Positions 3,187 through 51,882 of a DNA stretch of 64,000 nt are shown in pieces (the stretch's first letter is position 1; each line of letters begins with the position of its first letter). The notes below the pieces were generated by a model. The model saw nothing but the letters and a program-made list of their open reading frames with translations. It searched no databases and was not told the DNA's origin. The position numbers and the translations under genes were made by a program. Source of the stretch: Lycocorax pyrrhopterus obiensis (lineage: Eukaryota; Chordata; Aves; Passeriformes; Paradisaeidae); the NCBI GenBank assembly GCA_014706295.1, contig JACSVZ010000027.1:4878924-4942923 (forward strand), read 5' to 3'.

Positions 3187-6100
3187 ATGGATCCGGCCGG
3201 AGCGCTCCCTGCGCTGCAGCGGGAGCTGCGGGAGGCGCTGGCGGAGGACGAGCGGCGGCAGCGGGAGGGCGAGGCCAAGCTGCGGGCGGTGCGCCAGGGC
3301 GTCCCCGACTACGGCCAGTTCAGGTCCGGGGCTCGGGGACCGGCCCGAGGGGGTCGGAGGGGCCGCCTGGGCTCGGGAGGAGCCGGGAATTCGTTTGGGG
3401 CTCCGGAACCCCTCGGGGTCTGAGGTCGGAGCTGCCCCGGGAGGGGCTGGAGCTGATGGCCCGAGCACTGATCTTGGGGGACTCGAGGGGCAGCAGCCTC
3501 GGGATCCCTGGAACGGCCTCGGGATGCCCGGGACAGCCCCGGCTCCGAGGACAGAGCCCCCAGGCGCGGACACTCGGCCGTGGTTCAGATTTGTCCCAAA
3601 ACTCCTCAGGTGGCCCCGTAGGGGCTGAGATCTGCCCCTGCTCTGTGGCCGGTCCCTGTGGTGGCCCGGCTGTGGCCAGCAGTGGGATGGCACTGTCCCC
3701 TCCCCAGAGCACTGTCCCTTCTCCAGGACACTGTCACCTCTTCCCATTCCCACCCCCAGCCCCCCGTCTCTCCCCACACCCCCCAGGCCACGCTGGGAGT
3801 GCAGAAGCAGAGGGTGACGTGTCCCCCGTGCCCTTCCCAGCCCGTTCCTGCTCCCAGTCCTGTCACTCCTTTGTCCAGGGGGTTGTGAGCAGGTTGGGAT
3901 GGCCGGGCTGCTCCATGGTGCAGTGTCAGGCACTCCCAGTGCCCTCCAAACTCCTGGATTCCCTATGGATCCGTCTGGGGACTCCCAGTGTTCATCAAAG
4001 CCCTGGGTCCATCTACAGATCTGCCCGGGACTCCGAATGCCCACCCAAGCCCTGGATCCCCTACAGATCCATTCCTGTCCGTTGACATCCAGGATCCATA
4101 GGTAGATCCAGGACTTTGACCACACTTGGGAGACATCCTGGGACCAGATCAAATTCCATTCATGGATTCACATCTGTCTCACCCACCCATGCCACCTGAT
4201 CCCTGAGAGGCAGGAAAGCACTTTCAAGTGGCTTCTCCCCTGAACATCTTGCCAGTCCCTGTAATGGGATCCCTGAGGGATTTTAGGCTGGTTTATCCTT
4301 GTATTGGGAAGGGCCTGCTCCTGCAGCCTGTCCAGCCCCCCGGGATGATCCATACAGCCCAAAGTCAGAAATTGCCTCAGAGAAGCAGCTTGAAGCCTCA
4401 AAGTGTTTTCTCTTGCCACGTGTCCCTCCTGTCCCTGTTCCCTGTAGGGAGATTGTGCTGGCCTCACACCTGAAGCCCCTGGAGAAGAAGGACAGGCTGG
4501 GACAGAGGAGGAATGTGCTGTGGAATCCCTGTGCAGCCCCGGCCGAGGCAGCGCCCACCCGCGCTGTGGAGATCCCACAGGTGAGGGAGAGGCTGCCAGG
4601 GCCTCGTCCACAACTGGAAATGACTCAGGAATCATCTAGGTGTTAACTGGAATGCAGGAGTTACTCAGGACTCACTCTGGCTGTGAGCCAGCTCTCCCGG
4701 GCCCCTGGAATATCGGGGTTTGGATCAGCACAGGGTCAGGCTGGGCCCCTTCAAGAGGAGTCTGCTCCAGCCCTGTGGGAGTGGAGGCCTGGCTGCACAC
4801 CCTGGCCCCAGAGCTCCCAGTGCCTCCCATGGTGGGCAGGAACAGAGTATGGAAGCCATCCCTCCTGGCTGGGAGCAGCTCCCAGCAGCTGCAGCCTGGG
4901 ACCGAGAGCCAGGGCTGTGCACCAGGATCCTCCCTGGAGCAGCCTCTGGCTGCAGAGATTCCCTGAGCACAGCTGATGCTTTGCCCATGGTTTAGTGATC
5001 ATGGAAAAGGGCTGGGTTGGGTTAATCCTGCTGCCTGATGAGCTCACTGAGTCCCTCAGTGGTGGGAAACAAGGACAGGACATTTTCTGTCCAGGTCATT
5101 TGTGACTGGAGTCACCTCAGTCCTGCCCCGCCATGGGCTCTGTCCACGCTGGAGTGTCCTGGGCATTGGATGTTTCCCATGGTAATGCAATTTCATGGAT
5201 TGCCTTATAAACAATCCCATGGATTGTTTATGATGCTGGATTTCATTGACCTGTGTTTATTATAGGATCTTTTGCAAGTCTCCTGGGTAGCATTGTGTTT
5301 TCTTGGGCTGAGCAATGATCTCCTCAGGCAAATCTTGCTCCCACTCCCATCAGATCTGAGCACCAGGCTCAGATCTCCAGAGCTTTTCCCGCTGTGCTCA
5401 GCCCCAGCTGATGTCCCTTTGCCTTGTTCCTTGGCTGTAGAAAAGCTGCACATTTGCCTCCTCCTTCAGCTTGTGCATCAGTGACCCAGCGGGGATGGGC
5501 TCAGCAGTTAATTAGAGCTGGTATAAAATGGGATTTCCTTTATCTGGGAATGCCTTTATCTTGGAGCTCAGCTCTCAGCCTCTGCTCTGCCACAGCCCCA
5601 CCAATGTCGGGTGGTACCAGACAGGGCATCTGCACATTTTCTGGGGTTTGCATCTCCCACCTTTTCTCTGCCACTCCCTGGGTTTGCCTCTCAGTGCTCA
5701 GAGTGTTCCCTGCCCTGCCCCGATCTCCGTGAGATCCCTTCCCAGGCAGTGCTGGTGGATCCAGGCTGGGCAGAGGGTCTGACTCGGGTTGGGGTCACTC
5801 CAGGGCCATCTGTGTTCACAATGGGTGTCACATCTCATCCACACGTCCCTTTTCCCCCTGGAGTTCCCTGGTTTCTCAGGGCTCAAGGCACCCAGCATTT
5901 CCTTGTCTTCCCCTTTTCCCCCTCAGCAGCTCCTTGTGCTGCCCAAGCCCCTGGTAAAAACATCTCGGCTGTCCATGGGCTGATCAGGGGGAGGGGATCA
6001 AAGTCTTCAAGAGGGACCAAACCAAAAGGGACTGAGTGACTCCTTTCTCCTTCAGGAACTGGATCAGCTGCCCGCAACCGCCGCGGAATTTCACAGAGAT

Positions 6101-6523
6101 TGGCGCAGATGCTTGAAAAGTGGGACAGAGAAATACCAGTTTTTGCTGGAGCTCGGAGGGGAGGCCTTGGGCAGGATCTTCCAGGCTGATGTGGGCTTTG
6201 GCCTCCTGGGGGAATTCCTGACAGTGCTGGCAGAGAACATCCGTCCTGGAGACAGAGCTGCCATCCTTCAGATCCTGCAGAGCCTGGCGGGCACCAAGCG
6301 CTTCGGGCTGAACATGGCTCTCCTGAGCCAGCCGGAGAAGGAGAGCAGCCGGGATTTGTTCAGGAAGCTGCAGAGCAGGGATTGTCAGGCTGCTGGCCAG
6401 TCGGGCAGCCCGGCCAGCCATGAGGCAGGGGGGGAAGCCCATCCCATGGAGACCCACTTGGAAAAGGAAACCAAGGAGGAGAGGACAGTGGTGGAGCTAA
6501 TGAAGTGTTACCAGGTCAGCTGA
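3187..6523 (+). CDS. CCDC103: CCDC103, coiled-coil domain protein 103 (complete, 3 coding exons)
   Basis: CCDC103 is a cytoplasmic and axonemal factor needed for dynein-arm assembly in motile cilia; loss causes primary ciliary dyskinesia in humans. Exons: 3187-3323, 4448-4580 and 6056-6523, with phases that join exactly, giving 245 aa (human 242). The N-terminus opens MDPAGALPALQRELREALAE, a short helix/coiled-coil segment. Exon 2 starts with the family hallmark REIVLASHLKPLEKKDRLG. Exon 3 encodes the globular part, with FHRDWRRCLKSG, YQFLLELGG and QADVGFGLLGEFL, and ends MKCYQVS against the human LYQVD. The start is the first ATG after the GC-rich leader and matches the family N-terminus. 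In mammals FAM187A lies directly beside this gene; here it does not. Confidence 0.96.
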
Positions 6524-15399: not shown

Positions 15400-16345
15400 G
15401 AGCACGCACACACCTGCAGGGATGCACACACGTGTCTGGCCATGCTCACACACACCCAGCCCTCCCTGCCCTGTGCACACACACCCCACATGCAGTGCAC
15501 ACACACAGGTGCCTGCCTTGCACACGCGTGTACACACAGAGCATGCACGGACACACAGCGTGCACGGACACACAGCGTGCACAGACACACAGAGCGTGCA
15601 CAGGCACACACACAGAGCATGCACGGACACACACACAGCATACGTGGACACACACAGAACATGCACACACACACACAGTGTGCACAGACACACACAGAGC
15701 GTGCACAGACACGCACAGTGTGCACGGACACACACACAGAGCATACATGGACACACACAGAACATGCACACACACACAGTGTGCGCAGACACACACAGAG
15801 CATGCACAGACACACACAGCATGCATGGACACACACACAGAGCATACATGGACACACAGAACATGCACACACACACACAGCATGCACAGACACACAGACA
15901 GCATGCACAGACACACACACACAGCGTGCACGGACACACACATACACAGCATACATGGACACACACAGAACATGCACACACACAGTGTGCACAGACACAC
16001 ACAGAGCATGCACAGACACGCACAGCATGCATGGACACACACAGTGTGCATGGACACACACAACATGCACAGACACACACACAGAGCAGACATGGACACA
16101 CAGAACATGCACACACACACACAGCATGCACAGACACACAGACAGCATGCACAGACACACACACACAGCGTGCACGGACACACACAGAGCGTGCACAGAT
16201 GCACACACAGCGCTGCTTCCTCTGAACACTCACACACCCCCGGAGTGGCCCCTCTGCCCTCCCCCATACACACAACACACACAAGCACAGAACACAGAGT
16301 ACACCCAGGCGTGCACACACACACACACACACACACGTGCACCCC
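15400..16345. repeat. CA-rich higher-order minisatellite upstream of GFAP
   Basis: About 0.95 kb of short units such as GCACAGACACACACAGAGCAT and GCATGCATGGACACACAC. A block of about 97 bp recurs near-identically at 15846 and 16090 (offset about 244 bp), so there is higher-order structure. Long open frames on both strands are repeat artefacts, because the unit lacks stop codons in most frames. It lies about 0.5-1.4 kb upstream of the GFAP start. Confidence 0.92.
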
Positions 16346-18379: not shown

Positions 18380-19472
18380 CTCCTGTGGGAGCCCAAAAGG
18401 TAGCTGTGGGAGGGGTTTTGGGGGCCAAAAGGGGGTGCAGAATAATTGGGGAGGCTGTGGTTTAAGGGGGTGTCAGGTTGTGAGAAGGCAGAAAAGGGAC
18501 AATGTTGGAGGAGAGGCTGTGGGAACGCGAAGGAGGTTCAGGCTCACGGGGGGCTCTAAGGGGGCACTGGCCAGGGTTGGCACGGGGGCAGGGGGGAAGC
18601 AGAGCCGAGGAGGTGTCTGAGGCCTCTCCCAGCCTGGGGATCTCTCTCCCCCACTGCACCCTCCAGCTGAACCTATCCCCACCTCAAGGAGTGCATGAGG
18701 ACCCAGACCACTGGATCTGGAGCCGTGTCCTCCGGCAGCTCCATGACCCCGTCCCAAGCAGCTGCACGAATGGGGAAACACAACAGCAACCCCGAAACAC
18801 GCAGCCTGAAACTGTTCTGTGCCTCCACAGGTGCTGAGAGGGGCTGGGAGTCCTGGGGACACGGGGGTGTGCAGGTCCCAGGTGCCTCCTGGCTCCTGGC
18901 TGGCACAGACATGGCCTCGAGCTGCCACGGGCCCAAGAGCTGCCGGGTGCCTCGGCCCCAGTGCCCAGGGCTGCTCGGCCTCGGGGTGTCCGGCTGCTGT
19001 GTCCAGCTGCTGATCCGGCCCCTGCCCGTTCTCCCCCAGCCCACGTCACCAGAGCAGCTCCTGGACATGTTGGCCAAGGGCAACAAAAACCGCGCCCAGC
19101 GTCACACCAAGGCCAACGCCACCTCCTCCGGCTCCCACGCCATCTTCCAGGTGAGGGCTGCTGCCTCTGGGATCGCTGCCACTGCTGCTGGAAACGGGGC
19201 TGGGAAACTGCCAGGACCAGCATGCCAGGGCTGTCCCCCTCAGCAGTGAGCTGGGAATTTCGCTCCCCAGGGGCTCTGTCCGTGTGCTCTCTGGTTTCTC
19301 GGTGCAAAGCTGCCAGTGGATTTCAATTGCAGCCAGGCCCTTGCCCAAATTCGCAGGGCTGTCACGGCTGCCTGGGCAGACGGAGGCTCTGGCTGTCACT
19401 TCAGCCCGAGCCTGGTGCCTCGGCCCTGGCTGCTTGCAGGGGAGCAGCCCAGGTGTCTGGATGCTTTTCCAG
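18380..19472 (+). pseudogene. Partial inverted KIF18B duplicate (mosaic pseudogene)
   Basis: Three KIF18B blocks appear in order but on the opposite strand to the gene. The first, 18380-18755, matches 29210-28790 (upstream sequence and start of coding exon 1), at about 80% identity. The second, 18760-18832, matches about 28355-28285 (intron 1). The third, 18833-19472, matches 26606-25963: coding exon 4, which encodes the PTSPEQLLDMLAKGNKNRAQ segment, plus flanking introns. I counted only about three differences in the first 290 bp of the third block. Most of exon 1 and all of exons 2 and 3 are missing, and nothing downstream of intron 4 was copied. Introns are retained, so this is a DNA-level duplication, not a retrocopy. 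It cannot encode a kinesin. Confidence 0.88.
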
Positions 19473-20092
19473 CCAGCTCCCAGCTGGGCTCGTTGGTGGG
19501 TCCTGGATTCCTGCCTGCACGAATCCCTGAGCTCTGCTGGAAATCTGCCCTTCCCACTGCCAGCTCTGCCTCCCAACAAGCAAACCACGGGCTGAGGAGG
19601 ACACAGGAGCAGCCTTCAGCTTCCAGCACCTCTGTGGCAGCTCCAGTCCATGCAGGGGTTGCTCCTGGTGGGGCTGAGGGGATTACAGGGCAGTGGGGGA
19701 AGCATGTTTGATTCTACTGGGAAATTTTTAGGGATTCAGAGGGGAAGGTATGGAGCAGTGCTGCCAGGTGAGTCTTGGTGCCTGTGTCCCTCTTGGCCTG
19801 CACTAGCCCTGGGCTTGGCACCCACAGCCAAGCTGGTGCCTCCCTGGGGACACTGTCAGGCTCTGTCTAGGGGCTGAGTTTGGTGGCAAAGTCCACAGGG
19901 AGAGTCAGGCCTGGAGCTGCCTCTGTGTGTGAGCCCATCCCGGCTCATGCTGAGGCTTTGGGTGGATTTGTTGCCCTTCAAGGACCCAACCAGCTGTACC
20001 CCTCTCCATCTCTGAGTGTGGGAGATGCAGATTGTATTCCATAGCTCTGTCCCTTCCTGCCTCCCTTCCTGACTTTGCTTCTCATGTCACCT
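19473..20092. other. Spacer with no recognisable feature
   Basis: Between the end of the KIF18B homology and dispersed repeat copy B. I see no exon, no known transposon and no clear tandem repeat. Confidence 0.5.
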
Positions 20093-20422
20093 CCAGGTGT
20101 TTGGCTCACCATCATTGACATGGTTCAAGTGCCAGAGCATCGCTGAGACCCACAGTGCCCTCCTGGACAGCAGGATTTCTCCTGGGAATGCTGAAATCCT
20201 CAAGTCACACTCTCAAACAAAGGAGATGAGCCTGCAGGGCACATCCTGCTCCCTGCTGGAACCCTGCAGAGGTGCCACCACCTTTGGGGGACGTGCAAGA
20301 TAACTCTGTCAGGCACAAACATCGACTCCCAATTCTGTGCTGAGCTGGGTGACTTAAAAACACCTCAAAAGCAGAGATGTTTCTGAAGAAAATTGCCAGA
20401 TTCATTTGAAAAAAAATTCTTT
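20093..20422 (+). repeat. Dispersed local repeat, copy B
   Basis: Inverted relative to copy A (8700-9045). Its last 71 bp (20350-20421) recurs as copy C at 22234-22304 on the same strand. It ends about 120 bp from the FAM187A stop codon. Confidence 0.8.
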
Positions 20423-20544
20423 TCCCTTCAAAAAGCCGAAACCAAACATTGAAAAAAATGTTGAAAAAATATACGAAAAACTCACACTGGAAATTCCCAA
20501 TGTGAGGGTGATCCAAGGTGTCCGGGTGTCCTGTGGGGGAGCTG

Positions 20545-21789
20545 CTATAACCTGGCTGGTTTCCTGAACGCCTGACAGCAGCAGCGGCTCACGTGGATGA
20601 GGAAGAAGACGCCGGTGATGACGGCAAAGCTGATGCCCACAGCCCTCATGACAAAGATTGACTCGGGGTCAGTGGGGCTCCGCTGGCGCCGGGGCTGGAA
20701 GGTGACGCTGAGCTGGAAGCCGGCCACCAGCTCGCCCTCCCGCCAGCAGAAGTAGGTGGCTCTGTCCCTCCTGCGCAGTCGCTGGAGGTGCAGGTGGTTC
20801 CCGTGGTCGATGAAGACCCTCATGTGCTTCCTGACCCCCACGAGGTAGTGGGAGCGGTAGAGCCGGACGGAGCTCTTGTCCCAGGCCACGGCGTGCTCCA
20901 GCCGCGCTCCCGGGCACGTGATGACCAGGTCACTTTGGGAGGGCTGGCTGTGGTACTGGATGGGGACACGGGGCACCTGGGGCTTCTCGCCCAGCTTGTA
21001 CACGATGTTGGAGATGGACTTCACGCCCTCCTCGGGCACTTCCTTCTCTGGGCAAGGGGCCAGGCAGCTCCGGATGGCCACCTCGGGGCTCCGGAGGTGG
21101 ATGAGGCTCCCGAAGCGTGCAGGCACAGCCCTGGAGCCGCAGGAGGTGACGTTGGGCAGTGCTGTGCGGTACCGGGGGTTCAGCTGGGCACTCTGCACAT
21201 AGCAGAGCCCGATCCGCCGCTGCTCCCCCCGCACCCCACAGCGGTCACAGCTGGTCCAGTCCCAGAAGGTGGTGAAGAGGGTGAATTCCTTCGCTGTGTA
21301 GTCCTCTTGCACGTGCTGGTCATTGTCCAGAAAAGCCACTGTGATCTGCCTGGTGGGCTGCACGTCCACGTCATAGCCATAGAAGAAGAGCCCTTCCTTG
21401 GTGCCACACAGGTAATGCCCCGAGTCCCTCACCTGGGCTCGGAACACGATCAGACTGAACATGCGGATGCTGAAGCGCTTCAGGAGGTCACTGCCCGCGC
21501 GGACGTTGCTCGAGTCCACGACCACGGTGCCGTTGAAGTCCGTCAGCACCGTGGTTTCATGGCTGTGCAGGTTCTTCTGGAAATACCAGACAACAGAGGA
21601 GGCCTCCTCGGGCTTGCATTTGCAGGGCAGCTCGAAGGTCATGTCCGCCAAGTACGCGACGTTCTCGAACATCAGGAAGGCGGGACACGCCATCTTCTTG
21701 AACACATCCCCTTTCTTCTCAATGGCATAGGCCTGGAGAACAACCACCAGGGAGAGGAGAACGGCGGCTCCCAGCAGCCTCATCCCCAT
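20545..21789 (-). CDS. FAM187A: FAM187A, Ig-like V-type membrane protein (complete, single exon)
   Basis: A single-exon 414-aa reading frame starting at the ATG at 21789. FAM187A is a poorly characterised type I membrane protein with Ig-like folds. Visible parts: a signal peptide at residues 1-22 (LLGAAVLLSLVVVLQAYA); a first Ig-like domain with ELPCKCKPEE, VVWYFQKN and the canonical DSGHYLC; the family motif CDRCGVRGEQ with RIGLCYVQS; a second Ig-like segment with VITCPGAR, HAVAWDKSS and DRATYFCW; and a C-terminal transmembrane helix (ISFAVITGVFFLIHV) followed by CCC. These motifs match mammalian FAM187A closely. In mammals the gene adjoins CCDC103 on the same strand; here it is on the minus strand between GFAP and KIF18B. 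No frameshift is seen. No AATAAA was found within 250 bp downstream. Confidence 0.95.
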   Translation of the reverse strand: MGMRLLGAAVLLSLVVVLQAYAIEKKGDVFKKMACPAFLMFENVAYLADMTFELPCKCKPEEASSVVWYFQKNLHSHETTVLTDFNGTVVVDSSNVRAGSDLLKRFSIRMFSLIVFRAQVRDSGHYLCGTKEGLFFYGYDVDVQPTRQITVAFLDNDQHVQEDYTAKEFTLFTTFWDWTSCDRCGVRGEQRRIGLCYVQSAQLNPRYRTALPNVTSCGSRAVPARFGSLIHLRSPEVAIRSCLAPCPEKEVPEEGVKSISNIVYKLGEKPQVPRVPIQYHSQPSQSDLVITCPGARLEHAVAWDKSSVRLYRSHYLVGVRKHMRVFIDHGNHLHLQRLRRRDRATYFCWREGELVAGFQLSVTFQPRRQRSPTDPESIFVMRAVGISFAVITGVFFLIHVSRCCCQAFRKPARL

Positions 21790-22770
21790 CGCTCCGGGTG
21801 GTCTCTGGCCCAGCAGAACTCACTCGGCCCAGCCAGGGATCTGCTGGGAGCATCTTGCCCTGAAACAGCCCTGCCTCTGTTACCGGCTCTGGAACCTGCC
21901 TCTCCCCAGCAGCTCTGGAGCATTGTCACCCATGTCCCTGGCAACAATGGAGTTGAGCTGGGAACAGTGGAACCCCCGACTTCTCATCATGGTTTGAGTT
22001 GCATGGGAACTTAGAGAGGATCTCTAGTGCAGATCAACACCTTCATGGCTGGTGCCGTCAAGAGGGTATTGGCTTTTGGGGCAGTGGGCTGTGCCTTGAT
22101 GACTGGGGCCTGTTAGAGAGGGCAAGAGAATCTTCCACCATGGGCTGGCCCATCTGCTGGGAGGGGCTTTATGTGGAAAGGCTTGGGGGGTGGGTTCCAA
22201 AGAGGCAATGCTTGTGCCACTGCTTCCTCCTGGGTGAGTTAAAAACACCTCAAAAGCAGAGACGTTTCTGAAGAAAATTGCCAGATTAATTTGAAAAAAA
22301 ATTCAGCCTGTGGAGCCTGATGTTCCTTGGCTCAAACCCCACCAGTAGTGTGTGTGGCTGTGGTGAAACCTCTCACACCCCACGTGGTTTCTGGATCTCC
22401 TCTCTGAAGTGCCTGGACACAAACAGTCACAGCATGGGGAACAAACAAAAACTAGAAATGTGGATGTGCAGCAGCAGGGCCATGATCACACTGCAGTGAC
22501 AGAGACACAGTGGGACAGCTCACGTGCCTGGGATGTTGGCATGGATGGCCACGGCCATGTGCCCCCCCCACAGCCCTCACCTGAGCTCTGGGACACTGAG
22601 CAGAAGGCCCAGACCCCGCACAGCAAAGGGTGCAGAGGCAGGCCACAGGCCCTGGGATGATGGAGAAGGCGGATGGGCCCCAAGCTCAGAGCAAGAGCCT
22701 TTTCCAGGCTCCCCACACGAGGGGCAGGCAGGAGGGAACAGCCTCATGTTGGCCCTTGGATTCGGAACAG
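21790..22770. other. FAM187A upstream / KIF18B downstream spacer
   Basis: Contains dispersed repeat copy C (22234-22304) and the segment duplicated at 18160-18340 (22570-22725). There is no other gene. The FAM187A promoter must lie just above 21789; no TATA box is apparent. Confidence 0.6.
22234..22304 (+). repeat. Dispersed local repeat, copy C (71 bp)
   Basis: Near-identical to 20350-20421, with about three or four differences. The landmarks are TTAAAAACACCTCAAAAGCAG and TTTCTGAAGAAAATTGCCAG. Together with copy B it brackets FAM187A as a direct repeat. Confidence 0.87.
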
Positions 22771-22775
22771 AACAA

Positions 22776-22781
22776 TTTATT
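22776..22781 (-). terminator. KIF18B poly(A) signal candidate
   Basis: AATAAA on the minus strand only 15 nt after the predicted KIF18B stop codon at 22796. If used, the 3'UTR would be a few tens of bases. No better AATAAA was seen nearby. Confidence 0.5.
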
Positions 22782-22795
22782 AAAAACACAACAAC

Positions 22796-25700
22796 TTATT
22801 TCCTAAACCCACCCATAACCTGCAAACAAACAAACAGGACTGAGCCAACAGGGCGGGCACAAACGTGGGGATGCAGCTGGAACCATGGGCAGGGGGGCAC
22901 TGCGGGCCAGGAGGGGATGCTCAGGGGGCTGCAGGAAAAACGGGAGAGAGAGGAGCTGGAGGCGTTTGGGGTTTGAACGCTGGGAGGGGCGCTGGGCGGT
23001 GGATGCGGGAGGGCTGCCCGGAGCTCTGGCTGCTGCTCAGCACCCGGGGGAAGCAGCTCTGGAGCCGGCCCGGGGAGGGGGCTGGGGGTCCGTGCGGCCG
23101 CTGGTGCCGGGGTGCCAGGGCTTGGGGTGCCCGCCGGCGGGGAGGGCTGGGGGCTGACACTACGGGGCTCCGGGGACACAGCGGGGCTCTGCACGGGGCT
23201 CTGCGCTGCCCGGGGAGTCTCTGCTGCCTTCCCATGTCTCCCCTGGCGCTCCTTCCATGTTCGGGAGCTGCGGGAATTTTCTGACTGGGAATCGCTGCTC
23301 GACTCGAGCATCCCCTTAACCGGCCCGGGAGACATCGGCCTGGGGCTGGAGCACGCAGAGAACTCCTGGGAGCATTCCGGGTCGGCGCCGGGCACAGGGG
23401 GATCGGGCATGGTGACAGGCGCCTCGGCTAAAGGAGCAGAGAAGAAACAGAGTCACCTCCCTGTCTGCAGCTCCCGGACACCCCCAACCCCCGGAGCACC
23501 CCCTGTGCCCCCCAGCTCAGTGCAGATCTGCCCTCCCAGCCCCGCAGCAGCCCTTTGCCAGCGGCTGTTCCATCAAAGCGCATCCAACCCAGAGGAAAAG
23601 AGCCGGCGCAGGCGCCGGGCTGGTCCCGCAGCCGGTGTCCCGGGGGCAGTGTCTGCGCTGGCCCCGGCAAACGGGGTCTGCAGAGCCACAGCTCCGCTCC
23701 CAGGATCGCGCCGTGGCACGGAGGATGAGGAGGAAGAGCTCAGCCCTGCTCAGAGCCGGCTGCCGGCTGCGAGGCTCCACCGCGGCTGGCTCGGGCAAGG
23801 GAAGCAGGGAGGAGTAACGGAGACGGGAGAAACGCGGCTCAGAACTGCTGCTCTGGGCTCCTGCGAGATTCCTCCCGTGGGAGCTCCCTCGCACACACGA
23901 ACTGAGCTCCCCAGAGCCCAGGGCTGCTCCCGGCTCCTTCCCGAGGTGCTGCCCGGCTCGGATCGCTCTGCACAGTGAGGCCAGAGCCACGCCGGGCACA
24001 AGCCGCTTGGTGACACCTGGGGACACGCCCGTTCCTCTGCCCTGTGCCGGGAGCTGTGTCCCACCGCCGGCTCCTCCAGCACCCACTGAGACACAGAAGA
24101 GGGGCCAATCCCCACTGTCCCCATCCCAAATCCTCACCGGCACAGCTCAGCTGCGTTCCCGGGACTGGAGCGGCCTTGCTGGGCTCTGCGGGGCTGCTGG
24201 GAGCTGCAGCTTCCTCCAGTCCTACAGCCTCCTCTGGCCCTATGGACTCCTCTGGCCCTATGGCCTCCTCCGACCCTATGGACTCCTCCGGCCCTATGGC
24301 CTCCTCCGACCCTATGGACTCCTCCAGCTCTATGGAATCTTCCTGTCCTATGAAGTCCTTCTGCCCTATGGACTCCTCCAGCCCTAGGGACTCCTCCAGC
24401 CCTAGGGACTCTTCCAACACCAGGACCTCCACCTCCTCTGTCTTCGCAGTCATTTCGTCAGGGCAGAGGCTGCGAGTAGAGTTTGGGGTAAGAGAGTCAA
24501 ACTTGGAAGGCGGGACATTCCCGAGCTGTAAATCCCTTCCTGGAGAGCCTGAGCTGCGAGGTGTGTGTGTCCTTGTGGGTGACAAGGGACCCACGGGACA
24601 GGCCAGCATCTCCAGGCACAGCCCTGGTCCCACATCCATCCAGACCATGGACAACCCAGTCTGGCCAGACCGAGGAGAGGCAGCAGGACGTGGGGAGGGC
24701 ACGAGGACACTCACCTCTGTTCCTGGTGCCCAGACAGCTCCTGCAGAAGCGGACTTGGTGTCCTGGCCTGGAACTGCGTTTCAGGCAGGGAGGCTGCTCT
24801 GGGGCTGCCGGGAGACATCTCGGTGTGCTGCAGCTGCAGGGCCTGCGATGAAGCAGTGGTTAAAACACAACGGGGCAGCACGGACCCAGCTCCGGGGCTG
24901 GAGCAGGGCAGCTCCTCAGCCTCCTCCAGGCTCTAGGGCTCCCGGGAGCCCCGGATGGCTGCAGGGGACACGATCTGTGCTCAGGGACCTGCTGCCATGG
25001 GCAAAAGCCCTGCGGGGCCCTGGGCTGAGCAGCTTTAGCAGCAGAGCGAGCACACGCTGCTGCAGCTCCACCGGCTGCTCCTGCCCGCAGCGGCACCCCC
25101 GGGCTGGGAGATTCCCGCGGGATACGGGAGGCACCCACCAGTGCACCCCACCGCGCACCCTCCTGCCCCCCGCCCAGCAGCTCCCGAGCCCGGTGCTCAC
25201 CGGCAGCAGGATGTGCCGGGCCCGGCTGGCGAACCGGAGCGTGCTGCAGGTGTCGGAGCGGGCGGGCGCCGCGGGGCTCACGGCCGCGATCACGGTGCTG
25301 CGGCAGCTGCCGCCCAGCGAGTCCTTCAGCAGGCGGGTCAGTTTGCTGTCCCGGAACGGCACGTGGCTCTGCCCGCCCTGTCCCGAGACACCGAGGCTCC
25401 GCTCAGCTCCGGGCCCCGGGGAGACCCTCCCGGACCCGTCCCGGAGAGCCAGAGCCCGGCGGGGCCGGCCGGGAGCAGCCTCACCTTGGCTCCGGCCAGC
25501 GCACTGATGACGCTTCTGAGGGCCAGCAGCGAGCGGTTGGTGCTGGCGCCCTCCCATTGCGCCTCTCCCCGGCCCGCGGTGTCCCAGACTCGCTCCGAGC
25601 TCGCCAGGTCGATGAAGCTCAGCTTGGCCACGCGCAGATCCCCGGCGAGGCCGCCAGCAGGGTCCCACTGCTTCACCTGGATCTGCGAGGACAGAGGGGG

Positions 25701-28700
25701 CTGAGACTGTGGCTCCACAGAGCTGCTGGAGCAGGGACAGGGCTGTCCCCCAGCAAGGACAGGGCTCTGTGTTTTCAGGGGAAGGGCCAGTGGTTCCTGT
25801 GGGGAGATGAGGCAGGAGGAGGAGAGGAACCTGGCACCTGGTGGTGACACAAGGAGCAGAGCCAGGGAAGGGATCTGGCAGGAAGGGACAGCTATGGGAA
25901 CAATCAGCATCTCCCACGCTCGATGATAGAGAGGGGTACGGCTGGTCAGGTCCAGAGGGACTGGAAAAGCATCCAGACACCTGGGCTGCTCCCCTGCAAG
26001 CAGCCAGGGCCGAGGCACCAGGCTCGGGCTGAAGTGACAGCCAGAGCCTCCGTCTGCCCAGGCAGCCGTGACAGCCCTGCGAATTCGGGCAAGGGCCTGG
26101 CTGCAATTGAAATCCACTGGCAGCTTTGCACCGAGAAACCAGAGAGCACACGGACAGAGCCCCTGGGGAGCGAAATTCCCAGCTCACTGCTGAGGGGGAC
26201 AGCCCTGGCATGCTGGTCCTGGCAGTTTCCCAGCCCCGTTTCCAGCAGCAGTGGCAGCGATCCCAGAGGCAGCAGCCCTCACCTGGAAGATGGCGTGGGA
26301 GCCGGAGGAGGTGGCGTTGGCCTTGGTGTGACACTGGGCGCGGTTTTTGTTGCCCTTGGCCAACATGTCCAGGAGCTGCTCTGGTGACGTGGGCTGGGGG
26401 AGAACGGGCAGGGGCCGGATCAGCAGCTGGACACAGCAGCCAGACACCCCGAGGCCGAGCAGCCCCGGGCACTGGGGCCGAGGCACCCGGCAGCTCTTGG
26501 GCCCGTGGCAGCTCGAGGCCATGTCTGTGCCAGCCAGGAGCCAGGAGGCACCTGGGACCTGCACACCCCCGTGTCCCCAGGACTCCCAGCCCCTCTCAGC
26601 TCTGGTGCAGATGAGTCTGTCCCAGCCCTTGTGTCCTTTTTGTGCCCAGACCTGGTGGAAGGAGAGACCCTGTGCCACAGCTCCTTTCCCGGGCTGCTCC
26701 CAGATGTTCAGCGGGCCCCGGGGTTCCAGCAGGTCATATACGCGCTCTTTGTACACCTGGAGCAGGAAATCAAGGTCAGGCTGAGGTTTGGTTCTCTGGC
26801 AGAGAGCTGGGAGAAAAGCTGGGTACCCCTGCAGGATCTGGCACAGGTGGGGGTCCCCCTTGACCACACCTCCGGGACCCCATTCCACCAGGAGCAGCTG
26901 ACAGGGCTCGGAAGGCAGGGACAGCTCACAGAGTTTTGGTGGCCAGTTCCCCCAACCCCGCTCCTCTCCAGCCCTTCCAGCTAGGAAGCCCTCACTGCTC
27001 ATTGGAGCACAGCAAGGGAGAGAAAAGCCCCCCGCTCCAGCTGGCAGAAGCCAGCAGCACCAGTTCACTGCACTGGGTGGGCGATCCTGCCTCCAGTCAG
27101 GCTGCCCTGCGGACCCCGGGCACAGCAGGGGACACTGCGGGTACCCCGAGTGTGGCACTACAGGCTCTGGATCAACCCCAACTCTCTTCCCTGGGGACCC
27201 TGAGGCCGGAGGGGACACGCTGGGCCACAGCAAACCTGCTGGTAGGAGACGAGGACCTCACAGCTCTTGTCCCTCATGGCTTCGAGCCTCTTGTACAGCT
27301 CCACCGTGGCCAGGTGCACGATGCCGGGGCTGGTCTTGGAGCCCACCATGGTGTGGGTCTTCCCAACTCCCGAAGCACCGTAGGCAAACACTGGAAGGAG
27401 AAGGGGTGGGTGGTGAAATGATCTATCATTCCTCACCTGGTGCAGCAGAAGGTTGGGTTCTGGCTGGAGAGGAGAGCAGAGCAGAGCAGAGCAGAGCAGA
27501 GCAGAGGAGCTTCCCACACAGACAAGACATGAGGTAAAACTCATAACCTTCCCCACTGCTCCTCAGGGCAATTTTCCTCCCTGGTTTCAGCCTCTCTAAT
27601 GCAGCAGGGACAGAACGAGTCCTCAGATGAGTGCTGCTCCCATGCTCAGGTCACCTCTGACCCTGCCCTGGGACAAGCCGACAGCCCCGTTTCCCCCAGC
27701 TCTCCCCACGAGGCATGTCTGCTTCCAGACCTTGTCGTTCCCCTATTTCACCCCATCTTCCAACACCTCCTTTGAAGCCTCCACATCAGGGTGGAACACA
27801 CTGATCTGGAGCCTCAGCCCTTCTCCCATGGGCAGCACTCAGTGCTGGAGCCTGGGGACAGGCGCAGCCCTTCAGTGGCTCTCAGGAATCACCGAGAGCT
27901 GGAACAGCATCCTCTGGTCCGAGCACCTGGCACAGGATGAGCCTGGAGAGTGCTGGGCTCCTCCCGAGATGTGCCCGTGACATCCAACGGCTGCCAACAG
28001 CTGGGAACGGCTCCGGGGGCTGCAGCAGCAGCCAGGGGCTGTGGGAGCTGGGCAGGCCCTGTCACACCCGGCTCTACGGAGCCATTCAGGGTGGGAAGGG
28101 ACGGCAAAGCCAAGGGGCTCTTTCCCCATGCATCCACCACATTTCTTCCCATCCTTCCTGACCCAGGACAGACAAGAGTGAGTGATCCTTGTCCCTCGAA
28201 ATGCCTGGATGGCTCCTGCCCGGCCTCACCTCTACCCCAACCCCATATCCACCCTCTCCACCCCGTCTCCCAGAGGGCCCAGCACCCCTGGAAGGAACCA
28301 ACAAGCTTCAGGCTGTGTGATTTTGGGTTGCTGTTGTGTTGCCCCATTCCCAAAGATGCATGGGGGCTTCCAAATTAAATCCAGGGCTCTGCTGAGCCCA
28401 CCCCGCCCGGGAACGGATTGGCCAGGAGCTCCTGCAAGGATCAGAGATGTGTGCCAGGACTTACCGGAGCAGTTGTAGCCAGCGAGGAGGGTGTCCAGCA
28501 GAGGGAGTGTGGTGTGCTGGAACACCTCCTCCTGCGTGGCCCCCTCGTCAAAAACGTGGTCGAACACAAATTTAAGGTTCCTGCGGCGGCGGCCGGGGCT
28601 GCGGGCGGGGCTGCGGGCGGTGCCGCCGGCGCTGCCGGGCTCCTCGGGGCTGAGCAGCACCACGTTCTGGTTCAGGACGCGCAGGACGGGGGATGCAGCT

Positions 28701-28801
28701 CGCTCCCGGGGGCTGGGGGGCCGCACACGCAGCACCACTGCCACGGAGCCCTCCTGGGGCGGGGGGGTCTGCGCCCCAACGGGGATCTGGGGCTGGGACA
28801 T
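22796..28801 (-). CDS. KIF18B: KIF18B, kinesin-8 mitotic motor (divergent; at least 10 exons)
   Basis: KIF18B is a plus-end-directed kinesin-8 that limits astral microtubule length in mitosis. Motor exons: 28465-28801, 27236-27390, 26652-26756, 26283-26393, 25485-25682 and 25201-25377; phases join and give 361 codons. Recognisable parts are VVLRVRPPSPRE, DHVFDEGATQEEVFQHTT, the P-loop FAYGASGVGKTHTM, VYDLLEPRGPL and VPFRDSKLTRLLKDSLGG. Later exons: about 24960-25080 (3' border unresolved), 24715-24842, 24138-24469 (acidic 18-bp coding repeat) and 22796-23427 (Pro/Ser-rich tail). The total is about 760 aa (human 852). Two key residues differ from the kinesin consensus: switch I reads SSGSH and switch II reads DLASSE. 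Donors after exons 2 and 3 (GTTTGC, GTCTGG) are weak. The ATG at 28801 is used; upstream in-frame codons run only to a splice acceptor near 28856, so a 5' noncoding exon is likely. The gene may be fast-evolving or decaying. Confidence 0.85.
24211..24415 (-). repeat. 18-bp coding repeat in the KIF18B tail exon
   Basis: About 11 tandem 18-bp units read on the minus strand as variants of Glu-Glu-Ser-Ile-Gly-Pro (LEESLG, PEESIG, SEEAIG). They keep the frame and add an acidic stretch after the motor domain. Human KIF18B has an acidic LQEESLG-type segment at a comparable place. Confidence 0.88.
25963..26606 (-). repeat. Right arm of the inverted KIF18B duplication
   Basis: Pairs inverted with 18833-19472 at very high identity, across intron 3, exon 4 and intron 4 alike. 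The homology stops abruptly at GGATGCTTTTCCAG on both sides. The arms are about 6.5 kb apart and enclose FAM187A and the 3' half of KIF18B. Confidence 0.9.
27473..27507. repeat. GAGCA pentanucleotide microsatellite
   Basis: About seven tandem GAGCA units in KIF18B intron 1, roughly 80 bp upstream of exon 2. Confidence 0.88.
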
Positions 28802-28869
28802 GGAGCTGCTGGGGATCACGGCTCCCGATCCAAGGATCTGGGTCTTCACGCGGTCTGGGAGGGAACAGG

Positions 28870-29750
28870 TTCAGCTGGAGGGTGCAGTGGGGGAGAGACA
28901 TCCCCAGGTTGGGTGAGGTGTCAGAGCCCCGCAGCCCCCTGGGGTCTGAGCCCACTCCCCTCCCTGTGCCAACCCCACCCGGTGCCCCTTTGGAGCCCCC
29001 CATGAGCCTGAACCTCCTTCAGGCTCGCACAGCCTCTCCCAAAACCCTGCCCCTCCTTCGGGTCTCCTTGGATCCCCAACGGCCCTACAAACCCCTTCAT
29101 GCTCCTACTGGGTCCCCACAGCCTCCCCAAAGACCCTAAATCCCTTTGGGACACAGCCCCCTCCCACAGCCTCCCCAAGAGTCCCAACATCCCCCTTCCA
29201 GCCCACTCAGCCTCCCCACCTTTTGGCCCCCAGAGCCCCTCTCACGACCCCATCACCCCTTTGGTCCACTCAGAGCCCCCTCCCACAGCCCGGCCTCCCT
29301 CCCCTCCAGACCCCCGTGTCCCCATTCCGCCCCCGGCTCCTCCCGCGCCCCGCCCCAGCCCAGCACAGCAGAACTGACCCAGCGACCGCGTTCCCAGCGG
29401 GGACGGCAGCACCCACGCGTGGGGCCGGCAGTGCCAGGAGACGTGTGGGGTGTGCCAGGGGCGAGGCACGGCCTCGTTCACAGAGAAGGGGCTTTGCAAT
29501 CGCCTCCGTGCGGAGAGCAGCGATCAGAGCGCGGCTGAGCGATGCCAGCGCGGCCGGGACCTGCCGGGAGCGGCGGCCGCGGGGCAGCCCGGCCGTTGTC
29601 ACTCGCGCTCAGGAATCCGCCGGTACCCGGCAGCCCCGGAACGTTGTCACTCGTGCCGCGGTGCCACGGAGACATGGAACTGTGCCGGGACCAACGGCAC
29701 CCCCGACGGTTCATTCTCGTGGAACCACAGGGTCACGGAAGGGTTTGGGT
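28870..29750 (-). promoter_or_regulatory. Candidate KIF18B 5'UTR/promoter region
   Basis: Sequence upstream of the first coding exon becomes CpG-rich around 29390-29720, with GCGGCCGGGACCTGCCGGGA and repeated GTTGTCACTCG(C/T)G. An acceptor-like TTCCCTCCCAG precedes the coding exon at about 28857, so the start site could be here or further away (see 32100-32235). The assignment is inferred from position only. Confidence 0.4.
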
Positions 29751-29799
29751 TGCACGGGACCCGAAAAGACGGTCTCGTTACACCTCCCCAGAGTGGAGG

Positions 29800-30295
29800 G
29801 GCAGCACTCCCTTTCTCACACCCCTCTGGCCACTCCTCTTTTGCTGCAGCCCAGGATGCGTTTGGCGTTTGGTGCTGCCAGCGCTCGCTGTTGGCTCAGG
29901 TGCAGCTTTTCCTCCACTGGAACCCCCAAGTCCTTCTCTGCAGGGCTGCTCTCAGCTCTTCTCCCACTCTGTGCTGGTGCCTGGGATTGTCCCTGCGCAG
30001 GTGCAGCCCCTTGCACTTGGGTTTGTTGAACTTCATCGTGTTCTCTTGGTCCCACTTCTCAAGCTTGTCCAGGTCCCCCTGGATGTCACCTGCACCGCTC
30101 AGCTTTATGTCACCTTTGTGAACGTGCTGAGGGTGGGCTCGACTCACTGTCCATGTCAGTGAGGAAGGGATTGCAGAGCCCTGGTGCCACCGCAGAACCC
30201 TGAGGGTCCCCTGGTCACCGGCCTCCCCCAGGACACGGGGCCAGTGCCCACAACCCTCTGGCTGCATCCAGCCAGCCAATTCCTCACCCACTCAC
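29800..30295 (-). mobile_element. CR1 LINE fragment with ORF2 C-terminal remnant
   Basis: The minus strand reads as a broken CR1 reverse-transcriptase C-terminus, with recognisable pieces such as [34 protein letters not shown] and [12 protein letters not shown]. It is interrupted by frameshifts and truncated at both ends. It lies upstream of KIF18B. Confidence 0.92.
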
Positions 30296-33903: not shown

Positions 33904-39853
<5,950 letters not shown>

Positions 39854-46939: not shown

Positions 46940-49900
46940 TTAAGAGATGAAATGCCGGAGGAGGAGGAACACCAGCCCTCCGAGCCCGGCGACAGCCGTG
47001 CCCACCGCCAGCCGTGCCCAGAGGAAATCCAGGGAATCCTCGAGGCGGGCGTGCAGCCGCAGGACCTGCCGGCGCGTGCTCTCCCACTCCCCGGAGTTGT
47101 CGATGACGTGCGTCGCCCACTTGCGCTTCTCGTCCAGGGGCAGCTGGGAGCTGATCCGAGCTTCGGCCTCGGCCGCGTCCAACCCGCTCCTCTTCATCAG
47201 CCGCGCCAGCTGCGTCGGGGGGTCACTGCCGGGCGGAGCACGGGGTTGAGCTGGGAGTGGGAGGGAACGGGGGATCTGCCTTCCTCGGGCACCAGGGGGA
47301 ATCACTGGGATAAAACGGGAGTGAGAGAGGTGGCCCCTGTCATTTCTGACACAGTCAGCCTGCATTTGGATCAGCAGAGCCACCGCTGCCTGGGCTTTTC
47401 TCAGCATTCCCACACTGTAACAGTGCCCCAGATCCTGCCCTGATGGAGCACGGGTTGTGGAAGGCCCAAAGGCAGCGATTTCCCTTCTGTGATGGTGCCA
47501 GATTCCAGGGAAAGCTCAGGAAGGCCCTCATGCACTAATAAGGCAGCGTTGCTTCTCTCAGTGGGGTCTGCACCAGGGCTGTGGCTGAACCTTCACCAGA
47601 GTGGAGGCACATGATGATCCCCTCTGAGAGAGGTGATCTTATCTGGCATTCTCCCTGTCCTCATGGCTCCCAGAGCACTTACCAATAAACCAGCACCGTG
47701 TATTTCATAAACCTGGTCAATCCGCGGGTCTCGAAGAGCAGAGGGATGTCGAGGATCACGTAGCGGTAGCCTGTGGAAATGGCAACATTCCCCAAAAAAG
47801 GGAACAGTGTTAACCCCCATTCCCAAATTCCTCATGCTGCACACACACCATGGCCAGGAAAAGCAAAGCAAGCAGGAGCTCTACAGCTCCACAATTACAG
47901 CTGAGCAGAGCAGAGCCCCTGGCCCTCCTCCCTCTCACAGGGAGGAAATGGTTTCATTCCAAGTTTCCAGAGCAAAAAAAAACCAACCCTAACCTAGCTG
48001 CTCTCAGACCAAAGGTGAAACTGCAGAAATATAATGAGGAGCTGAAATGAGAGCAGCAGTGCCTGGCTGGCAAGAGCGGCAGCCATGCGCCGTGCCGGCC
48101 TCTCCCGGGAAGCAGTGCCCACAGCAGGATCTGCTTTCCACTCCTTCTCTTGTCCAAGACTTCGCCAGGCTGCAGCCATCTGAGCCAACATTTCCCAGCT
48201 CAGCTCTCCTCCCTTCATGAAAAGCTTTGGCTAAACAGCTGCATTTTATCAAGGGGAGCAAGGAAATCCTTGCAGACCTCTTGCAGCTGTGACACTGAAA
48301 CGCGGGGGGAGCCTCCAGGCACAGCCCAGGGGCCGAACCCTCACCAAAACTGGCTGAGTTTGGTTTAAAACCTCTGTCATCACAGGGAGCAGGGCTTGTC
48401 ACAGTCAATCGCTGTCCCCCTGGTTCTCCCTGTGCCTCTGCCCTTGGCCAGCGTTTGGCAAGGTGGGAGATGCTCTGCTGAGCCTGGGGGAAAGGGCAAG
48501 GGCAGGAGAAAGCTCCAAGTCAGGACTTCATTCCCCTATGTGTCCCCAGCCAAGGAGACATCTCCAGGTTTGTTGGTGTCCCCTCTTTATGACCCCCCTT
48601 AAACCGAGCTGCCCACAGCAAGCAATGCCTCGACAAAGACATCATCATCCAAGGAGCCACCATTCCACCAGCATCTCCGCCCTGAGAGGCTTCTCGCTGC
48701 CCTCGGATTTGATCGATCAGAGCTTTCCTTACACAGCGATCCTCAGAGACAACATCCAGCTATCCCAAATCATTAAATCCTGACTAATGAGGACAAAGCA
48801 GCCTGCTGAAGCCACACAGCGCTCTCGCCGAGGGCCAGGACAGCATCCGCCTCCTGAGCCCACAGCCCCGAGTTCAAGACTCCATCTCCGGCTCCTGGCA
48901 TTCCTGCCTGTTGCTTCCTTTGTGCTTCCTCCTCCTCACCCTGCAGCAGAGCTCGGCCCCGCGGTGCCCCGGCCTGTTCAGCTCTCACAGGGCTCAGCTC
49001 TGATAAGCACCACGAATCCAGACTGACTCTATTAAGGCATCCGTCTGTCTACACGGAGACCTCTGGAACAGCTGGTGATCTTATCTGGCATTTCCCCAGC
49101 CCGGCCTGACAGCTGCATTTGTTCCATTTATCAGGGGGAACGTGGGACTTTGGAAACCACAGCTGTCAGCCCATTCCTCACCTTATTGACACTCAAAGGG
49201 CTCCACAGCTTCCAGTGAAGCTGGAGCAGGCTGGGGGCAGAGAGGGACATTTGGCCATTTTGGGAGTGTGACATTATCTGGTGGGTAATCTCTGCAAAGC
49301 TGCTCCCAGGCCCTACAGATACACTTTAAACCGCAGAGGAAAGCGGTGAAGGGCAGCAGTGAAAGGCAGGAGTGAATCAGGAATGAATCCTCCAAACAGA
49401 CACCAAAGGCCACCGGAGGCAGAGCACAAAGGCTGTCACTCAACGTCCCTTCCCTTTCTCTGTTGTCCCTGTTCCTCTCCCCACATTCAAACCAAAGGTA
49501 GAGGGAGCAGGGATGGCTCCTGCCCAAGCAGAAGTCCTGGCAGGCCGGACATGGCCTCTTACCGAGCACAAAGTACTTCAGGACCTGCTTCAGCATCTCC
49601 TTCAGAATCTCAGGGTGGGTGATGGAGTTCAGCAGCCTCCGTTTCTCCGGCTGAGAGAAGATAATGTTTCCAAGAGCCTCACGATTTATCTCGCCATTCT
49701 CCAGGAGGATCTCGGTGCCAAAGTGCTGCAGGATCTGCTGATGGGCCTTGGAGTGGGGCTGCACCACTGAGAACATCAAACAGCCGGGGGTGAGAGCCGG
49801 TTTTACAGCACAGTCGGTGTTTGCATCAGCAATCGCCCTCAGATGGGGTTTGCTCATTAACTGACGGAGCTGATGCTCCCCGTGGCAGCACATCTGCCTC

Positions 49901-51882
49901 CAGCTCATCTGTCCCGGCACCACAGCTGCACGGCCTGGCAGCTCCTGCCAGAACAGCCCTGCCAGCCCAAGGTCCCTTTGAGGGCTGACACCTGGGAGAT
50001 CGAAGTCCTGCAGACATTAATTCAGCACCACAACCCTCCCGGCACGTGCTGCTGCTCGGGGTGACAAGTCAGCAGGGCGGGCAGGAGGACACGGTGATGG
50101 CCACACGCCAAGGCAGGGGCAGCAACTGGGCTGAGACAATTCCCACCAGGGATCGAGCAGGGAGATCCTAAAGGGACCAGGACCAGCCAAAAACTTCAGC
50201 ACTACGTGGATACTCACTGCTGCAACTTGGCTCTGGCTGCTGCTGAGGTGTTTTTTTTTTACTGTCTTTCACGTCAGTCACTAAATTCTTCAGGAAAATG
50301 AACACAAAAACCTTCTAAAAGCTCAATCCCCAATCAGCCCTTGCAGGGGCTCTGACGTTACAGGAGTGTATAACTTTAAAGCCACCAAAAAAAAATCCCC
50401 AACAAAAGGGATGAAGCAATAAAACCATAATTAAGCTCCAGCTGAGGGTAACCACAGCGAAGGACAGACCGCAGATAATCATCTCTCCCAAATCCAGGAA
50501 CATTGCCACAGGTTGTAACCTCAGACCAACCTCATAAAAGTCTTTAAGACCAATTTTTTTCTCCCGTGGAATATCACATGGACGCAGTTTCAGGACGGGT
50601 GAAATCCATATAGTAAACAAACACATATAAAAAAGGAATTGGTGGAAAATAAAGTGATTGGCAGAAAACTTCCACAGAGTATCTGTGGTGTTTTCCTACC
50701 GTCTCCGAGGGCTTTTAGCACCTCCAGCAAATTTCCTGCACCTCCAGGGGAATTACAGTGCAATAAAATGTTAAAGCATCACAGCTTTGAGTGGCTACAC
50801 AGTAAGTTCTTCACCAAACAGAAAAGCTCAGGCACTTCTAAATGTGCACCACGGCTCAGCCACAGACCCCAAACCTGCTGCATGCAGGATCCACAGCCCT
50901 CAGAATCCCAGACTGGTTGGGGAAAAAGAGCATCCAGTCCCACCCCTGCCATGGGCAGGGACACCTTCCACTACTCCAGGTTGCTCCGAGCCCCATCCAA
51001 CCTGGCCTTGGACATTTCCAGGGATCCAGGGGCAGCCACAGCTACTCTGGACAACCTCTGCTCTCCTCGTTATCCTGGTGGGGTGAAGGGATTAACATCT
51101 CACAGGTAATCAGGGAAAACAAGGTCTGCTCCAGTCCTACTGAGGCAACAGAGCTGGGATCCTGGGTCTTTTCTCCAGCCCGAGCAGCACGTTTTGAGAG
51201 CAGCAAGAGGCACGTGTGCAGTGCAGGAGCACGGACCAAATTCCCCCTGGCCTGGGATCTCTGGAGTCTCTTTTTTTTTTTTGAGCACAACAAATTTGTG
51301 GTCTGATCTCTCAGGATCAGCAGACAAACGACATCCAGCACAGAGGGGCATTCTCTTTCAGCTGTGTTAGTGATCCCACCCAACGTAACTGAGCGACAGG
51401 ATGGGTGTCCTAGGGCTCAGAGGGCATATCAGATTAGCCAAGGGATCCCACTTTACAGGGAACCACATTTATTTTTGCCCAGACTTGGCTTTCAAAGCTG
51501 GGAAGCATCACACTTCAGGGGAGGAAAACTCAGAGCACAGTCTCCCCAGGGTGTTTATTAGGTCATGATCTTCTTCTTTTCTTTATTAAAAATATATCCT
51601 AGCTCCAATCCCGCCCCCGGGGCAGCTGCTCCGCAGCCTCGCGGACTGGGAAGCGGGAGGGAAACGCTTCTCCGATGTACCCAGAGCACCCTCTGCCGTC
51701 AGCGCTTCCCGGCAGCGATCCCGGTTGTCAGGGGAACCTCAGGGAGCAGGACCAGCTCTGGAAAACTCACCCTGCCTGGCAATAACATCGGCATCGATCA
51801 CGGCACAGCCCAGCTCCCGCAGCACGGCCACCACCGTGCTCTTCCCCGACGCGATCCCACCCGAGAGTCCCACCAGGAACAT
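46940..51882 (-). CDS. DCAKD: DCAKD, dephospho-CoA kinase domain protein (complete, 4 coding exons)
   Basis: DCAKD has the CoaE dephospho-CoA kinase fold (ATP-dependent phosphorylation of dephospho-CoA to CoA); in vertebrates COASY also does this step, and the DCAKD role is less defined. Exons: 51771-51882, 49563-49766, 47683-47770 and 46940-47225 (112, 204, 88 and 286 nt). Phases close exactly to 229 aa (human 231). The product opens [16 protein letters not shown] with the Walker A P-loop GGIASGKS, then [10 protein letters not shown]. Exon 2 encodes [18 protein letters not shown] and SITHPEI. Exon 3 has [14 protein letters not shown], the conserved CoaE segment. Exon 4 has [24 protein letters not shown] and VIDNSGEW, then a hydrophobic C-terminal helix ([18 protein letters not shown]) as in mammals. 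A noncoding first exon is indicated by a GTGAGT donor at 55073-55078. Confidence 0.97.
50899..51068 (-). mobile_element. CR1 LINE 3'-end fragment
   Basis: Complement of the CR1 3' end: CCTGCCATGGGCAGGGACACC, CCAACCTGGCCTTGGACA and TTCCAGGGATCCAGGGGC in the usual order. In DCAKD intron 1. Confidence 0.9.

Follow-up and report, generated by a model that had tools for sequence, protein, structure and literature searches.

Does the KIF18B motor of Lycocorax pyrrhopterus obiensis, in which two switch residues are replaced, still hydrolyse adenosine triphosphate (ATP), or is the gene decaying? The locus lies on the minus strand of a 64,000-nucleotide stretch of contig JACSVZ010000027.1 (assembly GCA_014706295.1, positions 4,878,924 to 4,942,923), the whole of which is called the window here. 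A first-pass annotation had placed SSGSH in switch I (exon 4) and DLASSE in switch II (exon 5), at the sites of the kinesin motifs SSRSH and DLAGSE, and had suggested either a hydrolysis-deficient kinesin-8 or a gene at the start of decay. Both motifs are found where it had placed them. From comparison with other bird sequences we consider that KIF18B is here probably an eroding, hydrolysis-deficient kinesin-8. Human KIF18B is described as shortening astral microtubules and centring the spindle (PMC6028548).

The six motor exons are in phase with GT-AG ends and give one open motor of 361 residues, in agreement with the first-pass annotation. This motor covers the Pfam profile PF00225 completely (positions 1-327 of 327, 305.6 bits). 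The top match is named KIF18B in all three homolog searches, and KIF18A rows rank below it in one of them; the nearest solved relatives of the motor by sequence are KIF18A structures (5oam and 3lre, E 3e-98). Exons 7-9 were added with oscine proteins as guide. The full model has nine exons, 721 open codons, eight GT-AG introns and an intact start, stop and AATAAA signal (Table 1), and no stops, frameshifts or broken splice sites are found over the 721 codons. Its start methionine is matched by a methionine in the Malurus and Poecile proteins. Exons 7, 8 and 9 match a profile of 104 non-passerine KIF18B tails with 18.3, 14.8 and 49.0 bits, with the order kept and gaps present. By these matches the locus is oscine KIF18B, a kinesin-8, as first named. 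The donors of exons 2 and 3, already called weak, score 0.34 and 0.42 on a hand-entered frequency matrix, whereas the six other donors reach 5.0-7.5. In the annotated models of Coccothraustes (P0066) and Junco (P0004), exon 3 is skipped in frame or the junction of exons 2 and 3 is altered, which is in line with the weak donors here.

R230 and G264 in the numbering of the window motor correspond to R203 and G234 of kinesin-1. The window codons at these sites, GGC and AGC, encode glycine and serine. The two sites are indeed near-invariant elsewhere: 121 of 121 non-passerine bird rows and the seven other oscines aligned have arginine and glycine. The comparison with orthologues of other birds that had been proposed for these sites finds G and S in the window alone. 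Neither SSGSH nor DLASSE occurs in the 229 proteins fetched. SSRSH is present in 228 of them, and the exception, P0227, reads SSRLH with the arginine kept; an SSASH elsewhere in that protein was set aside as a chance match. DLAGSE is present in 221. Among the eight remaining proteins, three tit rows (two species) read DLAGSG, P0117 reads DLVGSE (a DLASSN at another place in it was rejected), P0065 stops before the motif, P0066 is misframed there, the low-quality Aegotheles row P0029 reads DLVALSE, and P0106 has no such motif.

R203, E236, E250, N255 and Y138 are described as a conserved network, and the switch network residues are called universally conserved, in PMC4383081. By offset from SSRSH and DLAGSE, the first four correspond to window residues 230, 266, 280 and 285, and the counterpart of Y138 should be Y162 or Y166, both of which are kept. 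The window has lost R203 and G234 and keeps E236, E250 and N255. In two tit genera, E236 (E266, the glutamate of DLAGSE) and N255 (N285, the asparagine of NRSL) are lost, and the network is complete in Passer, Camarhynchus, Junco, Anomalospiza and Malurus. As read from the aligned residues, the R203-E236 bridge has lost opposite partners in the two groups: the arginine in the window and the glutamate in tits. The chance of at least two hits among six network sites is p = 0.046 for the window and 0.09 for the tits; the network sites are not clearly singled out and appear rather to be no longer protected.

The P-loop GASGVGKT with its lysine and threonine, the Mg-contacting S228 and S229, D261 and the switch II glutamate are kept in the window. 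Because the P-loop lysine and threonine, S228, S229 and D261 remain, nucleotide binding is probably kept. The R203-E236 bridge is reported to be needed for water activation and hydrolysis (PMC5307337; the role of the switch residues is treated also in PMC5718755), and the kinesin-1 mutant G234A is reported to bind microtubules tightly, to be deficient in ATP hydrolysis and not to move (PMC3416812). By analogy with kinesin-1, the prediction of impaired hydrolysis holds for the window motor. The LREG helix downstream of DLASSE is altered as well and reads GEAQWEGA, as the first-pass annotation had noted, but the alteration is private to the window in part only. None of the six full-length oscines keeps R277, and W279 is found also in Passer, Camarhynchus, Junco and Anomalospiza; A277, Q278, A282 and T284 are private among oscines, and A282 is the non-passerine residue too.

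The two replacements stand in a motor that is diverged in all the oscines sampled. Oscine KIF18B was found in eight species, of the genera Passer, Camarhynchus, Junco, Cyanistes, Poecile, Anomalospiza, Coccothraustes and Malurus, all of which we take to be oscines, and it is of one derived type; Malurus is presumably an early oscine branch. As conserved we counted the 172 motor positions with a conservation of 98% or more across 121 non-passerine rows. The six full-length oscine motors, window included, have 32-38 of these changed (window, 32), and the partial Cyanistes motor has 28 of 131. The 121 rows have a median of 0 and a maximum of 6 changed, low counts that arise partly by construction, since the rows hold several isoforms of single species and themselves define the positions. 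Three turtles, which lie outside the defining rows, have 1 of 172 changed in each. Twenty-one conserved positions are changed in all six oscines, for example in YNE to YKE and TDAN to TKAN. P0028 was part of the same count, but its end is misframed and its value of 48 of 142 was therefore not used. Three oscine rows were left out of the count, P0004 and P0061 as second models and P0066 because it is misframed beyond exon 4; added again, they give 39/170, 24/108 and 56/138. Also left out were six second, partial or low-quality non-passerine models. Three of the latter give 3/164 (P0022), 2/148 (P0032) and 0/107 (P0065); the other three (P0026, P0029 and P0063) are taken up below.

The phylogenetic tree gives the same picture: the oscine stem measures 0.497 and oscine tips lie 0.80-0.93 from the root, compared with a median root-to-tip distance of 0.166 and a maximum of 0.508 for 116 non-passerine rows. 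Among the six oscines in the tree, the path back to the oscine ancestor is shortest for the window. Piciformes are placed next to the oscines, a grouping taken as long-branch attraction. Woodpeckers and their allies (P0013, P0017, P0024 and P0225) have a milder KIF18B acceleration, with root-to-tip distances of 0.42-0.51, and keep SSRSH and DLAGSE. No conventional passerine KIF18B is found among the 120 proteins listed of 5238 hits (0.55-1.75 times the query length, clustered at 90%, ranging from oscines through other birds to two turtles), and the eight passerine rows are all of the derived type. No suboscine KIF18B is present among these listed rows, and the erosion may have begun in oscines or in all passerines.

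The tail has changed together with the motor. A neck profile made from the 104 non-passerine tails finds no match in positions 20500-30000 (best E 1.9). In the window there is also no match to the block around LLTP, to the C-terminal microtubule-binding region or to anything past tail-profile position 345, and SxIP is not found in the window tail. LLTP and SxIP are absent from the Poecile, Malurus and Cyanistes tails too, that is, from four oscine tails with the window; among the 104 non-passerine tails, 96 have LLTP and 68 have SxIP. The Cyanistes tail matches the profile up to position 421 and that of Poecile up to 389, with compositionally biased scores. The first-pass annotation had counted an unresolved exon near 24960 as a sign of decay. 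No exon is needed there: the Poecile X1, Cyanistes, Malurus and Passer models pass from exon 6 to the exon-7 sequence, and other oscine models continue differently. In human KIF18B, the C-terminus and its EB-binding motifs are described as needed for gathering at plus ends, and residues 500-593 as dimerising (PMC6028548). The lost LLTP block may be this 500-593 dimer domain.

Purifying constraint persists across the oscines at a residual level. Within the six oscines 40 of 172 conserved columns are variable, compared with 74 of 157 other columns (Fisher 6e-6), and in a residue-stratified permutation 0 of 20,000 replicates reach the observed constraint (p = 5e-5, at the floor). Exon 5 holds nine of the 22 motor changes that are private to the window (p = 0.011, one of several tests and uncorrected); two of the nine, A282 and I295, agree with the usual residue of other birds. 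The window tail differs from those of Poecile, Malurus and Cyanistes by 6-7 indels each, several of which sit in repeats whose unit length is three bases or a multiple of three. We gave these indels no weight, as protein alignments cannot reveal frameshifts.

We propose the following course. The ancestor of the sampled oscines would have lost the neck, the LLTP block and SxIP, and its motor would have begun to change at otherwise fixed positions under a purifying selection that was relaxed and not gone. The Lycocorax lineage would then have lost the switch I arginine and the switch II glycine. Nucleotide is probably still bound by the head, but with the flexible G234 and the R203-E236 bridge both gone, neither closure of the active site nor ATP hydrolysis would work well. 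The protein would then sit on microtubules without moving, or move very slowly; it would probably be a monomer with poor targeting to plus ends, and KIF18A would take over the mitotic role. In a more far-reaching version, oscine KIF18B began as a dimeric mitotic motor that tracks plus ends and became a protein without a neck, probably a monomer, with a head that is kept for a non-walking use; the ATPase gate would have been broken at least two times independently, at the arginine here and at the glutamate in tits. This version is tentative, and we regard it as rather doubtful; if true, a single bird suborder would hold a natural gradation between functioning motors and pseudo-motors.

Several observations weigh against the proposed course. 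On the window branch alone there are 22 private changes, and 7 of the 19 that can be scored fall in conserved columns (p = 0.13, a test of little power). Under neutrality 0.9 stops are expected on this branch, so the stop count is uninformative. The donors at exons 2 and 3 are weak. The hydrolysis claim leans on a G to A change in kinesin-1, whereas the window has G to S. An SxLP-type SPLP stands in place of SxIP in the window and in Malurus; it is possibly a weaker relative of SxIP, and some EB binding is possible. Erosion may also extend beyond songbirds: the kagu Rhynochetos jubatus (P0063, low-quality) has 39/165 positions changed, 23 of them before residue 300 and 16 after it, the row being misaligned near its end. 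The low-quality Aegotheles row P0029 has 19/162 and the second Melanerpes model P0026 has 12/172. These three counts could reflect poor models or real erosion in further bird lineages.

An inverted partial copy of the gene lies about 6.5 kb away on the plus strand (Table 1). Its outer pieces are colinear with the gene, and directly past the 640-bp tract the similarity falls to background. Such a pattern is in keeping with an old inverted duplication of part of the gene, in which gene conversion bounded by two structural breaks has homogenised the middle section in recent times. Since both copies have SSGSH, the switch I change predates the split of the two tracts and is hard to explain as a read error. 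The exon 4 of the copy equals that of Malurus except for R230G (1 of 37 residues); this near-identity makes transfer from the gene to the copy the likelier direction. Between the 99.4% identical arms lie the Ig V-set gene and KIF18B exons 5-9; if the arms recombined, this stretch could be inverted and KIF18B split.

The alternatives can be weighed against this evidence. Selection for a new role might have made oscine KIF18B a non-motor protein that could do without its ATPase gate or in which the gate was disfavoured. The long stem branch, the 21 shared changes at otherwise conserved sites, the frame and constraint kept across oscines including Malurus, and a gate broken in two lineages from opposite sides would all suit such a history. 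We nevertheless find it unlikely, although not negligible: the five other oscines named above keep the complete network, relaxed constraint yields the same pattern, and the heavy change in some non-passerine rows suggests an erosion that is not songbird-specific. A recent pseudogene, in which KIF18B would be dispensable in songbirds and the Lycocorax copy already dead with its stops yet to come, is possible because of the p of 0.13 and the mere 0.9 stops expected. It would explain the loss of two catalytic residues, the private changes without detectable avoidance of conserved sites and their uncorrected clustering in exon 5, the weak exon 2 and 3 donors and the presence of only eight passerine species among the KIF18B proteins listed. 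It sits poorly with the 721 intact codons, eight GT-AG introns, start, stop and polyadenylation signal and with the shortest path from the oscine ancestor, and we judge it slightly less probable still. The eroding, hydrolysis-deficient kinesin-8 that we favour thus retains one half of the first-pass annotation, the predicted impairment of hydrolysis. Its other half, incipient decay of the gene, does not fit as stated, because the derived motor and short tail are shared by oscines including Malurus, frame and some constraint are kept, and the window path from the oscine ancestor is the shortest of the six. For Lycocorax itself, KIF18B may be a hydrolysis-deficient kinesin or a gene in late decay.

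Gene conversion could likewise have produced the switch I change in the inverted copy or spread it from there. The 99.4% identical tract covers exon 4 in both copies, between outer pieces of 78-81%, and both read SSGSH. However, the copy's exon 4 is that of Malurus bar the one arginine, unlike a long-neutral donor, and DLASSE lies in exon 5 outside the tract; we think this origin about as improbable as a pseudogene. We consider it very unlikely that the window copy is a spare and that the genome holds an intact, conventional KIF18B at another locus, given a locus that looks syntenic (by a gene order that we assume) and eight passerine rows of the derived type without exception among the 120 listed. 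An error of sequencing or assembly hardly deserves credence. The data come from a single assembly and DLASSE has no second copy, which sets the limit of this argument, but SSGSH stands in two copies with four other base differences and different surroundings, and the frame is open throughout.

Around KIF18B, Pfam identifies an Ig V-set gene, presumably FAM187A, and on the other side a gene with a CoaE domain that we take to be DCAKD. We assume from the human order that these are its usual neighbours. At 6029-6523, a match to the end of the Junco KIF18B model is probably a neighbouring gene fused to that model by annotation. Self-comparison further reveals two self-similar stretches, probably tandem arrays with diverged units, and a dispersed repeat.

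Table 1. Position of KIF18B, its partial copy and other features in the window
Feature	Position	Strand	Remarks
KIF18B exon 1, start Met and motor N-terminus	28465..28801	-	donor CCG/GTAAGT
KIF18B exon 2	27236..27390	-	P-loop GASGVGKT; weak donor CAG/GTTTGC
KIF18B exon 3	26652..26756	-	VYKE (VYNE in other birds); weak donor CAG/GTCTGG
KIF18B exon 4	26283..26393	-	switch I, SSGSH 26295-26309 (R230G)
KIF18B exon 5	25485..25682	-	switch II, DLASSE 25593-25610 (G264S), GEAQWEGASTNRSL
GEAQWEGA in exon 5	25545-25568	-	
KIF18B exon 6, motor end RFASRARHILLP	25201..25377	-	
KIF18B exon 7, tail start	24715..24833	-	tail profile positions 108-144 (non-passerine KIF18B)
KIF18B exon 8, EES/GPEE repeat	24138..24469	-	exon end at tail profile positions 182-219
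KIF18B exon 9, Ser/Pro-rich tail to stop	22796..23427	-	tail profile positions 217-345
AATAAA polyadenylation signal	22776..22781	-	directly past KIF18B stop
Inverted copy of 25961-26600	18833..19472	+	640 bp, 4 mismatches (99.4%)
Exon 4 copy	19040-19150	+	reads SSGSH; residue 220 is R (C in the gene)
Older portion of inverted partial copy	18510..18756	+	78% identical to 28788-29039
Older portion of inverted partial copy	19982..20099	+	81% identical to 25835-25953
Ig V-set gene	20548-21789	-	single exon
CoaE domain (DCAKD-type) gene	49186-49923	-	about 20 kb off
Match to Junco KIF18B model P0004	6029-6523	-	165 residues, 78% identical to its end
Self-similar stretches	15441-16331, 37971-38921		probably tandem arrays
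Dispersed repeat	296-461, 50925-51061, 52256-52425	both	copies 86-90% identical

The window gene is like KIF18B of other birds and turtles in its end-to-end motor and in the order of its tail blocks. It differs from them in being without the neck, the LLTP block and SxIP, and in its changed conserved motor sites, among them the switch I arginine and the switch II glycine. KIF18A, the closest solved motor, keeps SSRSH and DLAGSE and is a different gene. The loss proposed here would concern a single lineage in a family of active motors, in contrast to KIF26A, which we take to belong to another kinesin family. KIF26A is itself described, in PMC10585591, as a kinesin without motor activity, like the present proposal. 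Among the titles listed from an open-licence library, no paper on oscine KIF18B was found, nor one on such a loss in birds. Birds in which KIF18B has been stripped of its neck, its tail motifs and in places its ATPase gate would either have no need of the protein or use its head for something other than motor activity. Oscines whose switch networks are complete, set beside those in which they are broken, would amount to a mutagenesis experiment done by nature on residues that PMC4383081 calls universally conserved. The nearest laboratory counterpart is the kinesin-1 mutant G234A (PMC3416812), in which the same switch II glycine is altered; the change in the window is natural, goes from glycine to serine and is accompanied by the loss of R203.

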